Shown here in pieces: positions 6,796 to 14,251 of a DNA stretch of 16,360 nt. Origin of the DNA: Sphingomonadales bacterium. GTDB lineage: Bacteria > Pseudomonadota > Alphaproteobacteria > Sphingomonadales > Sphingomonadaceae. Both the position numbers and the translations under genes were made by a program. The stretch is taken from assembly GCA_020200935.1 (NCBI GenBank), contig JAIVHR010000169.1, forward strand, positions 1-16,360, written 5' to 3'. Every line of letters begins with the position of its first letter. Position 1 is the first letter of the stretch. Below the pieces are notes generated by a model. The model was not told the origin of the DNA, made no database searches, and saw only the letters and a program-made list of their open reading frames with translations.

Positions 6796-7623
6796 TCAAT
6801 GCTTCTGGTCGCGCCAGACATTCCGCTTGGCGAGGAAGGCGAGCACGGTGGCGAAGGCGAGGAAAATCAGCACCGCCCATCCGGTCGATTTGCGCGCCTC
6901 AAGCTTCGGCTCGGCGGTCCAGATCAGGAACGCAGATACATCCTTCGCCATCTGCTCGACGGTCGCCTCGGTGCCGTCGTCATAGGTCACCTGCCCGTCG
7001 GCGGTCAGCGGCGGCATCATGGCGAGATTGAGATTGGGAAAATAGGGATTGTAGTACAGCCCCGGGCCCGGACGATTTGCTTCCGGCAGTTCGGCGGGAG
7101 GATCCTCGTATCCCGTCAGCAGGGAATAGACATAAGCCGCGCCGTCATGCCGCGCCTTGGCGATCAGCGAGAGATCGGGCGGGATGGCATTGTTGTTCGC
7201 CGCACGGGCAGCCGCATCGTTGGCATAGGGCGACGGGAAATAGTCGGACGCGATGCCTTCGCGCATCTCGGCCTCGCCGGTCTCCGGATTGATGTCCGGA
7301 ATCTGCCATTGGGCGGCCAATGCATCGACCTCGGCCTCGCTGAATTCGAGAGCCTGGAGATTGCGGAAGGCGACATAGCGCAGAGAATGGCAGACCGCGC
7401 AGACCTCTTCATAAACGCGATAGCCGCGCTGAAGCTGCGCGCGATCGAACCGGCCGAAGGGCCCGTCGCTGGCGAAACTCACCTGCTTGGGATGGTGATG
7501 GAACTCATGCTCGACCGTCTCTTCGGGCGGATCGCTCAAATAGGCGCTGGCGCCGACGATGAGCGAATAACCGAGCACGACGACGAAGCCGAGGCCGACG
7601 AGAAATCCGATGACGCGTACCAT
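6796..7623 (-). CDS. petC: Cytochrome c1 of the bc1 complex
   Basis: Cytochrome c1 accepts electrons from the Rieske protein and passes them to soluble or membrane cytochrome c on the periplasmic side. The 275 residues begin with an uncleaved-looking hydrophobic signal (4-27). A His-rich EHEFHHHP follows (38-45), then the haem-binding CAVCH (75-79) in VYEEVCAVCHSLRYV. The sixth ligand Met is Met202 or Met203 in LAMMPPL (200-206). PDLSLIAKARHDG...YVYSLLTGY (150-172) is a family hallmark. The C-terminal anchor is about 247-267, leaving a short basic cytoplasmic tail. It starts 13 bases after the end of the cytochrome b tail, with AAGGGG as ribosome site. Unlike cytochrome b next door, it looks fully intact. 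Confidence 0.96.
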   Translation of the reverse strand: MVRVIGFLVGLGFVVVLGYSLIVGASAYLSDPPEETVEHEFHHHPKQVSFASDGPFGRFDRAQLQRGYRVYEEVCAVCHSLRYVAFRNLQALEFSEAEVDALAAQWQIPDINPETGEAEMREGIASDYFPSPYANDAAARAANNNAIPPDLSLIAKARHDGAAYVYSLLTGYEDPPAELPEANRPGPGLYYNPYFPNLNLAMMPPLTADGQVTYDDGTEATVEQMAKDVSAFLIWTAEPKLEARKSTGWAVLIFLAFATVLAFLAKRNVWRDQKH

Positions 7624-7636
7624 TCTTCGAAACCCC

Positions 7637-7834
7637 TTATGCCGACGGCTGCGCTGGCGTGTCGCCCGGAGGCGGTGCGCTGCCGAGCCCCGGCGGCGCC
7701 GGCTCCTCGTCCCGGTGCAGCACCGCTTCGGTGATCGAATTGGGCAGCGGACGCGGACGCTCGGTGCGCGAGACGATCGGCAGGATGATCAGGAAATGGG
7801 CGAAATAATAGATCGTCGCGGCCTGGCTGATCAT
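7637..7834 (-). pseudogene. Detached C-terminal fragment of cytochrome b (helix H and tail)
   Basis: The 65 codons start at an ATG overlapping the stop of the truncated cytochrome b (TGATG). They read [23 protein letters not shown] and then a proline-rich tail beginning RPRPLPNSITEAVL. ISQ-x-AT-x-YYFAHFLIILP is the terminal membrane helix of alphaproteobacterial cytochrome b, and LPNSI is also seen in such tails, so this is the lost 3' end of petB in another frame. If the overlap allows re-initiation, a single-helix peptide could be made. I annotate it as a fragment because the preceding helix G is missing from both pieces. Confidence 0.8.
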
Positions 7835-8820
7835 CACAACAGGATGATGATCGAGCCGAACATCGCGATCACGCCCCACAGCTTGGCCGGCAGAATGAAG
7901 TCCACCGTGAAGGCGCGCAAAACCGCGTAGAAGGGCCAGAAATACCATTCGGGCACGATATGCGCGGGGGTCGAGAGCGGGTTGGCCTCGATATAATTAT
8001 CCGGGTGGCCGAGGAAGTTCGGCGCGAAGAAGACCAGGATCGACAGCGCGATAAGGAAGACGCCGACGGTCCAACCGTCCTTGGCGGTATAATAGGGATG
8101 GAAGGGGATCGTGTCCTGCGGGCCTTTCACATCGATGCCGGTCGGGTTGGACGAGCCCGGCAGATGCAGCGACCAGATATGCAGGATCACCACGCCGGCG
8201 ATCACGAAGGGAAGCAGATAGTGAAGCGAGTAGAAGCGCGTCAGCGTCGCATTGTCGGGCGCGAAGCCGCCGAGCAGCCATTGTTTGAGCGGGTTGCCGA
8301 TCAGCGGGATCGCCTCGAACAGGCCGGTGATCACCTGCGCCGCCCAGAAGCTCATCTGCCCCCAGGGAAGCACATAGCCCATGAAGGCGGTCGCCATCAT
8401 CAAGAGGAAGATGACGAGGCCGAGCAGCCAGACCATCTCGCGCGGCGGCTTGTAGGAGCCGTAATAGAGCCCGCGGAAGATGTGGATATATACGACGATG
8501 AAGAAGAAGCTGGCGCCGTTGGCGTGCAGATAGCGCATAAGCCAGCCCGAATTGACGTCGCGCATGATATGCTCGACCGATGCGAAGGCGACGCCCGTAT
8601 CGGCGGAAAAATGCATCGCCAGCACGATGCCGGTGACAATCTGGATGACCAGCGCGACGCCCGCCAGCACGCCGAAATTCCAGAAATAATTGAGATTGCG
8701 CGGTACCGGATAGCCGGCGCCGACCGAATTGTAGACCAGTCGCGGCAGCGGCAGACGCTCGTCCATCCACTTCATGAAGGAGTTTTTCGGGGTGTATTGC
8801 GCAGCCCAGGGGAAGCTCAT
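7834..8820 (-). CDS. petB: Cytochrome b of the bc1 complex, truncated by an internal deletion/frameshift
   Basis: Cytochrome b carries both b-type haems and the two quinone sites of the bc1 complex. This frame gives 328 residues, against about 400-430 expected. Haem ligands His99/His113 and His200/His214 are present with the normal 13-residue spacing. So are the Qo-site PEWY (290-293) and helices A to F. The protein stops right after [16 protein letters not shown], in the middle of helix F, at tandem TGA TGA codons. Helix H and the tail continue in a shifted frame (7637-7834). The loop after F, helix G and the start of H, about 45-50 residues, are absent. One base-call error cannot explain this; it needs a deletion of 3n+1 bases, real or from assembly. 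It starts 11 bases after petA. Confidence 0.85.
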
Positions 8821-8831
8821 GTCAGTCTGCC

Positions 8832-9404
8832 TCAGCCGATCGTAACGGTGGTGTCGGAGGTGAATTCATATTCGGGCACTTCGAGGTTGGTCGGCGCAGG
8901 GCCTTTGCGGATGCGCGCCGCCGTATCGTAATGCGAGCCGTGGCAGGGGCAGAAATAGCCGCCAAACTCGCCGCGATTCTCGCCCTGCGCCGCGCCCAGT
9001 GGCACGCAACCGAGGTGGGTGCAGACGGCGAGCGTGATCAGCCAGTTCTCATGCCCCTCGACAGTCCGCTCGGCCAAGGTCTGCGGATCGCGCAGATCAC
9101 CCAGCGGCACGGCATTGGCCTGCTGAATCTCGGCCGGCGTGAGGTTGCGCACGAAGAGCGGCTGCTTGCGCCAGATCGTCTTGATCGCCTGCCCCGGTTC
9201 GATCGCCGACAGGTCGACCTCGATCGAGGACAGCGCCAGCACGTCGGCCGACGGATTCATCTGGTTGAGCAGCGGCAGCAAGGTCACGCCGGCGCCGACG
9301 CCAGCAACGCTCACTGCGGCAATGTTCAAAAAGTCCCGCCGGCGCACGCCGTCTTCGCTTGGCGTATCGCCTGCCGGGGTCTGCGTGTCTTGGACCGTCG
9401 CCAT
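8832..9404 (-). CDS. petA: Ubiquinol-cytochrome c reductase iron-sulfur subunit (Rieske protein)
   Basis: The Rieske protein takes the first electron from quinol at the Qo site and hands it to cytochrome c1. The 190 residues carry a twin-arginine motif RRRDFLN (21-27), then an uncleaved membrane anchor (about 28-47), as usual for bc1 Rieske proteins. The cluster-binding boxes are CTHLGC (128-133) and CPCHGSH (152-158). Cys128, His130, Cys152 and His155 bind the 2Fe-2S cluster, and Cys133 and Cys154 form the stabilising disulfide. The frame is open far upstream, but the start MATVQD at 9404 gives the right family length and a plausible AAAGG ribosome site. It is the first gene of the - strand petA-petB-petC-apt cluster. 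Confidence 0.96.
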
Positions 9405-10906: not shown

Positions 10907-11496
10907 TGGGACTCGAATCGATCCCGCCCGGCCGGATCGCCACTATCGTCACCTATCTCGACATGCGCGCGCGACCGAAGCGGGCGCCGATGCCCGACTC
11001 CCCGTTGCGGCTCGTGCGCTGGCCGGCGCCCGTCGATGGCGAAAAATACCGGACGCTGTTCGCCCGCATCGGCGGACCGTGGCTCTGGTTCTCGCGGCTG
11101 GCGATGGCGGACGAGAAGCTCGAGGCGATTCTCCGCGATGACGGCGTCGAGATCTTTGCAGTCGAGGACCGCCAGGGCATCGAGGTCGGCATGCTCGAGC
11201 TCGACTTTCGCGAGGCCGGCCAATGCGAACTCGCATATCTTGGGCTGGTGCCCGAACTGGCGGGGCAAGGCCATGGCCGCTGGCTGATGGCCGAAGCGCT
11301 TGCGCGCGCCTGGCGCCAGGATGTCGAGCGCGTCCATGTCCAGACCTGCACGCTCGACCATCCCGGCGCGCTCGGCTTCTACATTCGATCGGGCTTCACC
11401 CCGCGCGGCCGGGCGGTCGAGAGCTTCGATGATCCGCGGCTCAACGGGCTGCTGCCGCGCGAGATGGCACCGCACGTGCCGATCATCGAAGGCTAA
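10906..11496 (+). CDS. GNAT-family N-acetyltransferase
   Basis: GNAT enzymes move an acetyl group from acetyl-CoA to an amine on a small molecule or protein. The 196 residues show motif A as LGLVPELAGQGHGRWLMAEAL (112-132), where GQGHGR binds the CoA pyrophosphate. Motif B is HPGALGFYIRSGF (152-164), the usual C-terminal GNAT core. The N-terminal 50 residues are poorly conserved and hold no recognisable extra domain. ATG 10906 overlaps the hemF stop as TGATG; a TTG one codon earlier is less likely. The substrate is unknown. Its place in a trmL-hemF operon does not suggest one. The stop codon overlaps that of the convergent membrane protein gene (CTAA at 11493-11496). Confidence 0.88.
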   Translation: MGLESIPPGRIATIVTYLDMRARPKRAPMPDSPLRLVRWPAPVDGEKYRTLFARIGGPWLWFSRLAMADEKLEAILRDDGVEIFAVEDRQGIEVGMLELDFREAGQCELAYLGLVPELAGQGHGRWLMAEALARAWRQDVERVHVQTCTLDHPGALGFYIRSGFTPRGRAVESFDDPRLNGLLPREMAPHVPIIEG

Positions 11497-12302
11497 CGAT
11501 GGGCATGGGGAAGGGTCGCTGTTCGCCCTTCTGCAAGCTGCCTGTAGATCGCCAGGGACATTAGAACGGAAAGGACCATCAACGTCGTTAGCCCCAAAGC
11601 GAGGACTGTCATCAAGATCGGGTTTGGCGAGCCCCCTCCTTCGCCGCCCAATCCTGTCAGCACAAGCAGGACACCCACGATCAGGAGGGCAACGAAGATG
11701 AGAAGGGTCGTGAGAACAACCACGAGCAAATAGAACGCGAACATCCGAAAAAAGTTACCGCTCGTAATCTCCCACGATCTTCGAACCACGGAAATTGGCC
11801 AGCGAGCTTGCTCCGCAACAAGCACTGGCGCGACCACCGTGAGCCGTACTTGAATATAAATTTGAACTGCGAACGCAACCAGAACACCCCAAAAACCGGC
11901 CAGCCCCAACACCGTATCGAGCAGGAGTAGGGCAGCGGCTACCAAGATATTGACCAGGCCGAGATAGCCGAACCGCGACAAAGCTGTCGCTATCGCCTGT
12001 TTCGCGGCTCGCCCTTCGCCCAGCATGACCCCGCCGAGGATTGCCAGCTGTCCCGCCCAAAAGGCGACCACCAGAAATAACATCCACGGCAATAGCTGTT
12101 GTCCGATCGCACTGACCTCTTGCGGTGCCGGTTCGGGCCCGAGCGCGGCAAGCCGTTCGAGCGGAGCAGAGAAAAAGAAAAAGATAAGGCAAGGCAGCAG
12201 GAAAAAGGCGCCGCCGAGCGCGATCAGCAGCTGGCGGTTGGCGACCAGCCTCGCGCGGACATCGTCCCACGCGGCGCTCGGCGAAAATCTCTTGGCGGCC
12301 AT
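11493..12302 (-). CDS. Multi-pass membrane protein of unknown function, lower GC than neighbours
   Basis: The 269 residues contain about six membrane segments (roughly 25-44, 72-95, 111-133, 136-158, 186-218, 229-252). The start [21 protein letters not shown] and the loop [20 protein letters not shown] (174-193) recall sphingomonad proteins annotated as glycerophosphoryl diester phosphodiesterase membrane domain. That link is from memory and weak, and no catalytic domain is present. The frame is open upstream to 13010, but that part is antisense to lipB, so ATG 12302 is chosen. Hand counts give 33 and 31 G+C per 60 bases at 11521-11580 and 11821-11880, against 40 per 60 in lipB at 12601-12660. 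The composition suggests acquisition or relaxed selection. It is divergent from lipB and convergent with the GNAT gene. Confidence 0.8.
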
Positions 12303-12377
12303 GGCCAGCGGTTTGGCCGAGTGGCCGGGCCGAGACAAGCCCTTGATCCACCGCCCCCGGCCGCGCATCTCTGGCCG

Positions 12378-13121: not shown

Positions 13122-13409
13122 ATGCGTAAATCACTCAAACTTTCGACCGGCGTGTTCCTCGCCGCCGGACTGGCGCTCGCCGCCTGCGGTGAAACCGAGA
13201 CGGTGAGCGAGGACGATACCGCGGTCAGCGACGTCGATCCCGGCGAGGCCGACGGCACGATCGACGACACCACCGCGGTCGACGCCACCATCGGCATGGA
13301 TGACGACACCGCGGTCGACGGCGTCGCGCCCGATGGCATGGCACCCGAGGAAGAAGCTCAGGATGGCGCCGTTCCCGCCGAGGAAGATGGCGAGGGCGCA
13401 AGCGAATAG
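13122..13409 (+). CDS. Small acidic lipoprotein with DDTAV repeats
   Basis: The 95 residues open with a lipoprotein signal. There is a basic start (MRKSLK), a hydrophobic core and a lipobox LAAC with Cys22, followed by Gly-Glu-Thr. The residue after Cys is Gly, not Asp, so outer-membrane sorting is plausible. The mature 74 residues are almost all Asp, Glu, Ala, Gly, Thr, Val and Pro, without aromatic residues, and must be disordered and highly negative. The unit DD-T-(T)-AVD recurs at about residues 28-32, 51-55 and 63-68. The frame is open back to 13038, but the signal peptide and the GGGA site at 13111-13114 fix the start. I do not recognise a family. A cell-envelope role such as cation binding is speculation. 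A terminator follows, so it is probably a single-gene unit. Confidence 0.8.
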   Translation: MRKSLKLSTGVFLAAGLALAACGETETVSEDDTAVSDVDPGEADGTIDDTTAVDATIGMDDDTAVDGVAPDGMAPEEEAQDGAVPAEEDGEGASE

Positions 13410-13609: not shown

Positions 13610-14251
13610 ATGGTTCGAACCGCACTGAAACTGGGGCTCGTCGCATTGGCGAGCATGGCCGCTCAACCGGCGGCGGCGCAGGTCTTCTTCTATCCGCCCG
13701 AGCATGAAGGCGCGCCGGTGACCGGCGCCGAACCTGGACTGTTCGTGCCGTCGATGCCCGGCGCCAACCCGGCCGACTATCGCGCCAACCTCATCTGGAA
13801 TCTGCGATCGAGCCTCAATGTCGCGGCGCTCAATTGCCAATATTGGCCCTATCTCAACGCCGTCGACAATTACAATTCACTGCTCCGCCATCATGCCGAC
13901 GAACTCAATTCGGCCTATGAGGCGCTCAAGGATTATTTCCGCCGCACCGGGGGGCGCAGCTGGCAGTCGACGATGGATACCTACACGACCTCGATGTATC
14001 AGGGCTATATCCGCATCGGATCGCAGCGCAGCTTCTGCCACGCGGCCGCCGAAACGATCCGCGATGCGCTCGCCCGCCCCAAGGGGCAGCTCCACCTGAC
14101 CGCAGCCAACCGGATGCGCCAGATGCGCAACAGCCTCGTCAATTACAGCGACAACACCCTGCCGTTTAACGAGCCGGTCCCCGTGCCCCCGCTGCCGCGG
14201 CTCGACGACGCCTGCTGGCGCGGCGACCAATACGACACGCGCCGCTGCTGA
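13610..14251 (+). CDS. Exported protein of unknown function with four cysteines
   Basis: The 213-residue product begins with a clear Sec signal (MVRTALKLGLVALASMAAQPAAAQ), with cleavage expected after AAA at residue 23. The mature part is rich in Tyr, Asn and Arg, looks mainly helical (about 57-175) and ends in a proline-rich stretch (184-197). Its four cysteines (76, 143, 202, 213, the last residue) could form two disulfides in the periplasm. I recognise no domain; it may be a sphingomonad-specific family. ATG 13610 is preceded by GGGAGA. The 15-base leader GGGAGAGTATCGATG resembles that of the lipoprotein gene (GGGAGTATATCGATG; 13 of 15 identical), so the two may share control. The 143 bases between the terminator and this start hold no clear promoter match. 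Confidence 0.82.
   Translation: MVRTALKLGLVALASMAAQPAAAQVFFYPPEHEGAPVTGAEPGLFVPSMPGANPADYRANLIWNLRSSLNVAALNCQYWPYLNAVDNYNSLLRHHADELNSAYEALKDYFRRTGGRSWQSTMDTYTTSMYQGYIRIGSQRSFCHAAAETIRDALARPKGQLHLTAANRMRQMRNSLVNYSDNTLPFNEPVPVPPLPRLDDACWRGDQYDTRRC

Follow-up and report, generated by a model that had tools for sequence, protein, structure and literature searches.

The cytochrome b gene petB is cut in this stretch of sphingomonad DNA, and the cut is probably a local deletion introduced during assembly, a reading to which we give a probability of about 0.77 on the sequence comparisons described here. The window, meaning the whole stretch of DNA analysed, is an entire contig of 16,360 bases. By all appearances its source genome is a MAG of the genus Parasphingopyxis (Sphingomonadales), a draft of 343 contigs that is 66% complete. 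A sequence-only reading had left three explanations side by side, namely an inactivated bc1 complex, an odd split protein and an assembly that had dropped bases. The last of these is now the best supported of the three, an intact copy of 439 codons (P0002) having been retrieved.

The 5' piece of petB (7834..8820, minus strand) is a frame of 328 amino acids. It carries two pairs of spaced histidines, His99/His113 and His200/His214, the members of each pair lying 14 residues apart, and a PEWY motif at residues 290–293. The two histidine pairs of cytochrome b are its haem ligands. Against Pfam, this piece matches Cytochrome_B at positions 3–186 of 189 and the first 45 of the 102 positions of Cytochrom_B_C. 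The frame terminates within helix F, and helix H and the C-terminal tail resume in another frame as the 3' piece (7637..7837, minus strand), which encodes 66 residues followed by a stop. Read as an open reading frame from the ATG at 7834–7832, the 3' piece comprises 65 codons and runs to 7637. The TGA of the first frame (7836–7834) shares a base with this ATG, forming a TGATG overlap at 7832..7836 on the minus strand. On these points the sequence-only reading was accurate: it had recognized that all four haem ligands and PEWY are kept, that the frame stops inside helix F with helix H and the tail in a different frame, and its position for TGATG was exact. Among the features of a bc1 cytochrome b, the histidine pairs, PEWY, the N-terminal domain and an operon shared with the genes for the Rieske protein and cytochrome c1 are all present in the window. 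A C-terminal domain with helices E–H in one frame is absent from this assembly and present in the presumed second assembly, from which P0002 comes.

P0002 was retrieved by searching a large protein collection. It is an NCBI protein of 439 amino acids from a MAG of Parasphingopyxis sp. and is encoded on a contig of 16,514 bases. Its first 327 and last 66 residues are identical, residue for residue, to the two petB pieces of the window, and the 46 residues between these blocks have no counterpart there. Residue 328 of the 5' piece is Leu where the intact copy has Phe, and the TGA follows. By codon arithmetic, 138 bases separate the codons of Leu327 and Val374 in P0002 versus 2 in the window, so that 136 bases (3 × 45 + 1) are absent at the break point (7837..7839, minus strand). 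The sequence-only reading had put the loss at 45–50 residues and about 145 bases of the form 3n+1; the residue range and the form hold, and the number of bases is 136 relative to P0002. By hydropathy, the missing block spans the end of helix F and the whole of helix G. In the helix lettering of bc1 structures, the 136 bases encode the end of helix F, the F–G loop, helix G and the G–H loop. Residues 8–411 of P0002 align with solved bacterial cytochrome b chains, for example PDB 1zrt, and both alignments shown are gap-free through the missing block. P0002 also fills Cytochrom_B_C (102 of 102 positions). Judged from the codons of P0002 rather than from the DNA of the intact copy, the sequences at the join share at most one base. 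The sequence-only reading had foreseen that a further 3n+1 bases might restore one continuous frame of about 410–430 codons, and the single 439-codon frame of P0002 comes close to that.

The ends of the window indicate where P0002 may come from. At the left end lies a 5'-truncated L25 gene (2..643, plus strand), whose frame is identical to P0121. This protein of 213 amino acids is assigned to two contigs, of which the longer measures 16,514 bases and the other is presumably that of the window. At the right end lies a 3'-truncated capsule-type gene (KpsC-like, PF05159; 14329..16359, plus strand). Its counterpart P0241, of 677 amino acids and also from a contig of 16,514 bases, stops at the same end residue as the window protein and is identical to it at 676 of 677 positions, the exception being position 601 (Gln in the window, Glu in P0241). 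Eight relatives were fetched of the 119 others listed; at this codon Glu is also found in P0242, and the other seven have Gly (six) or Leu (one). From the identical figure of 16,514 bases we infer that P0002, P0121 and P0241 are encoded on one contig. If they are, its ends coincide with those of the window to within about 2 bases on each side, and it probably represents the same interval assembled a second time. The match at both ends would point to a single sample as the source of the two contigs. To the extent that the three proteins share a contig, another assembly contains this locus with petB intact. The two contigs differ in size by 154 bases, that is, the 136 of petB plus 18. A tandem repeat with a period of 18 bases (13261–13320) is a candidate place for these other 18 bases. 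This repeat lies in a frame for a small acidic protein (13128–13409) with imperfect tandem repeats of period 18 (13261–13320) and period 21 (13201–13242) and no match to any Pfam family.

The alignment with petB of close relatives that the sequence-only reading had proposed found the gene uninterrupted in all nine genus mates, residues 1–327 being matched within open frames of at least 427 amino acids in each. Likewise, petB runs uninterrupted through helix H in 80 of 80 loci from genome contigs, these being the best 80 of 596 confirmed; one of them (L063) has its 5' side cut off by a contig end. The two sets overlap, since for example L002 and L087, and L003 and L090, share genomes. The strict spelling HIVPEWY scores 72 of the 80 relatives; the remaining eight (L011, L025, L040, L046, L047, L048, L049 and L051) are likewise intact. 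Eight other loci, which carry PEWYY or PEWYL, are intact too, which gives the full count. The wider family search covered 99 genomes, with that of the window among them, and 98 gave a petB match. Apart from the window's genome, one long frame was lacking in three cases: a gene in two frames (G016), a gene on two contigs (G072) and a genome with no match (G079). The first of these (G016:C1:2761518-2762497) is broken near residues 214–225 in a single-contig genome that is 86% complete with 7% contamination, and the break is possibly a long-read indel error. No protein of about 328 amino acids was present among the 120 matches listed of 8000 scored in the protein collection.

Two other unusual petB-like sequences were encountered. 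In the genus mate G003, the full petB match is accompanied by a shorter petB-like stretch within an open frame (L091; G003:C3, about 330829–331065, minus strand), whose N-terminal 47 residues are joined at a shared Tyr-Phe-Trp to the part after PEWY. The haem-binding helices are missing from it, and helices F, G and H are seemingly kept. The other is P0001, a partial cytochrome b of 456 amino acids from a Sphingomicrobium MAG, encoded on a contig of 11,516 bases. At the start of helix G its chain returns to an earlier segment and repeats it, which looks like a further petB assembly error near the same place.

TGATG had been taken by the sequence-only reading for a re-initiation junction. In intact relatives, the codon series TAT-GTG-ATG often precedes helix H. 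TGATG occurs within the 24 bases around the site in 30 of the 87 loci scored (of 89; L021 and L064 were left out), in 27 of them as GTGATG, and near the site in five of the nine genus loci. No Shine-Dalgarno-like sequence was seen by eye ahead of the ATG at 7834. TGATG is no sign of an evolved re-initiation site, because GTG-ATG is common in intact relatives; as judged from these codons, it is a fortuitous out-of-frame reading of an ordinary codon pair and not an evolved junction.

The genes next to petB are intact, as the sequence-only reading had also found. On the minus strand, petA, encoding the Rieske iron-sulfur protein (8832..9404; Pfam UCR_Fe-S_N and Rieske), lies upstream and petC, encoding cytochrome c1 (6796..7623; Pfam Cytochrom_C1), downstream. 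All 190 residues of the petA product align in each of the nine genus mates. The petC product also aligns in all nine, over the whole of its 275 residues in seven and over residues 1–253 and 1–273 in the other two. We saw no gene decay near petB in 14 other well-conserved window genes (L25, pth, SDR, YchF, MaoC, apt, petC, petA, trmL, hemF, GNAT, lipB, 13610–14251 and the capsule-type gene). Each is present in five to nine of the nine genus-mate stretches, with gaps of at most 4 residues in the aligned parts. Two further frames (11493–12368 and 13128–13409) are poorly conserved, with scattered gaps of up to 12 residues relative to genus mates. For MgtE and the frame at 1405–2262, no orthologue was found in the genus-mate stretches; MgtE of the window matches its own Pfam domain at positions 1–124 of 125. 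Elsewhere in the same genome, a COX1-family gene (PF00115) and a full-length CydA-family gene are both unbroken. Because PF00115 takes in cytochrome c oxidases as well as quinol oxidases, the COX1-family match fits either type and is given no weight here.

Most likely, then, cytochrome b of this organism is encoded by a single ordinary, uninterrupted gene within a petA-petB-petC operon. We infer that the loss arose in assembly rather than in the cells: 136 bases would have dropped out as the contig was assembled, for instance where the assembler bridged a short gap in coverage between two pieces. Such a loss would shift the frame and create the apparent stop, with TGATG as a by-product. Several observations favour an artefact: P0002 is intact on a contig whose ends appear to match those of the window, the draft source genome is fragmented and incomplete, petB is unbroken in the nine genus mates and in the best 80 of 596 loci, and no decay was seen in the well-conserved genes nearby. 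Assembly error is known to account for many of the putative pseudogenes in published bacterial genomes (PMC11017572). Other observations count against it. The join is clean and therefore not a simple repeat collapse. The contigs are set apart by at least one residue (601 of the capsule-type protein) and by some 18 further bases, and could therefore belong to two strains. The COX1-family gene, the CydA-family gene and the other window genes tested are unbroken, and the assembly is therefore not broadly bad.

These same observations lend some weight to the main rival, a real and recent deletion of the 136 bases in a strain or sub-population, inactivating cytochrome b and with it the bc1 complex while intact cells coexist. 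Affected cells would respire via a quinol oxidase, for example cytochrome bd, and the full-length CydA-family gene means that loss of bc1 could be survivable. The clean, repeat-free junction and the differences between the contigs in one capsule-type residue and about 18 bases are what such an event might leave. However, the short form has no further record among the 120 matches listed, what remains of the petB protein is identical to the intact copy beside intact petA and petC, with no sign of relaxed selection, and the intact contig seems to share both ends with the window, as expected of one sample. A lone record, an unrelaxed operon and shared ends are also compatible with a very recent deletion, and we regard a real deletion as the less likely reading, with a probability of roughly one in five. 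The inactivation of bc1 envisaged by the sequence-only reading thus takes second place to an assembly loss and survives in the narrower form of a partial-population event.

A working two-piece cytochrome b, in which pieces of 328 and 65 residues, the latter translated by re-initiation at TGATG, assemble into a bc1 complex lacking helix G in a sub-population, is highly improbable. None of the four haem histidines is lost, PEWY is present and TGATG could couple translation, but the end of helix F is absent along with the whole of helix G, when even in the split b6f type subunit IV retains helices E, F and G. TGATG is moreover a chance GTG-ATG reading present in intact relatives, with no Shine-Dalgarno-like sequence seen by eye ahead of the ATG, and no such form occurs in any relative examined; the odd split protein of the sequence-only reading is therefore not supported. 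We consider it just as far-fetched that the window petB is a decaying paralogue of a functional petB elsewhere in the genome. A second copy may be missing from a genome that is 66% complete, and the genus mate G003 does have an extra, internally deleted petB-like frame. Nevertheless, the check for a second petB suggested by the sequence-only reading returned a single match in the source genome at that completeness, and eight of the nine genus mates have one petB match only. The window petB also adjoins intact petA and petC, and the intact P0002 seems to derive from the same locus.

Set beside known systems, the 5' piece shares its haem histidines and PEWY with bacterial bc1 cytochrome b (PDB 1zrt), whereas the window lacks 46 residues, helix G among them, and its frame is broken. 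The b6f complex likewise has cytochrome b in two polypeptides, b6 and subunit IV. There the cut falls after helix D, the listed solved b6 chains matching P0002 only to residue 226, and subunit IV holds helices E, F and G together. In the window the break follows residue 327 in helix F and helix G is absent, so the arrangement is not that of b6 and subunit IV, as the sequence-only reading had already argued. Like the spurious assembly pseudogenes of PMC11017572, the case has a gene broken in one assembly and a near-identical intact counterpart in another. That study treats frameshifts and internal stops at genome scale, whereas the present case is one locus. Acidophilic Acetobacteraceae offer another comparison: parts of PMC10715153 describe a deranged or non-functional alphaproteobacterial bc1 complex, with other routes of quinol oxidation, bd oxidases being named. 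In that group, the loss extends across taxa and affects conserved ligands of both the Rieske protein and cytochrome b, whereas the window keeps all ligands and lacks one block of 136 bases. The window thus resembles neither the b6/subunit IV split nor the deranged bc1 of Acetobacteraceae. The phrase 'split cytochrome b' was not met in the portions of the literature sampled on petB and bc1.

If the split protein worked, a bc1 complex would be able to do without helix G, contrary to the pattern of both bc1 and b6f. The case serves rather as a caution, in that a draft genome can present a clean out-of-frame loss with a tempting TGATG at the junction while an intact copy exists in an apparent second assembly. 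In this apparent Parasphingopyxis draft, the cut in petB most likely reflects faulty assembly or, at best, a recently broken variant rather than a new split enzyme.
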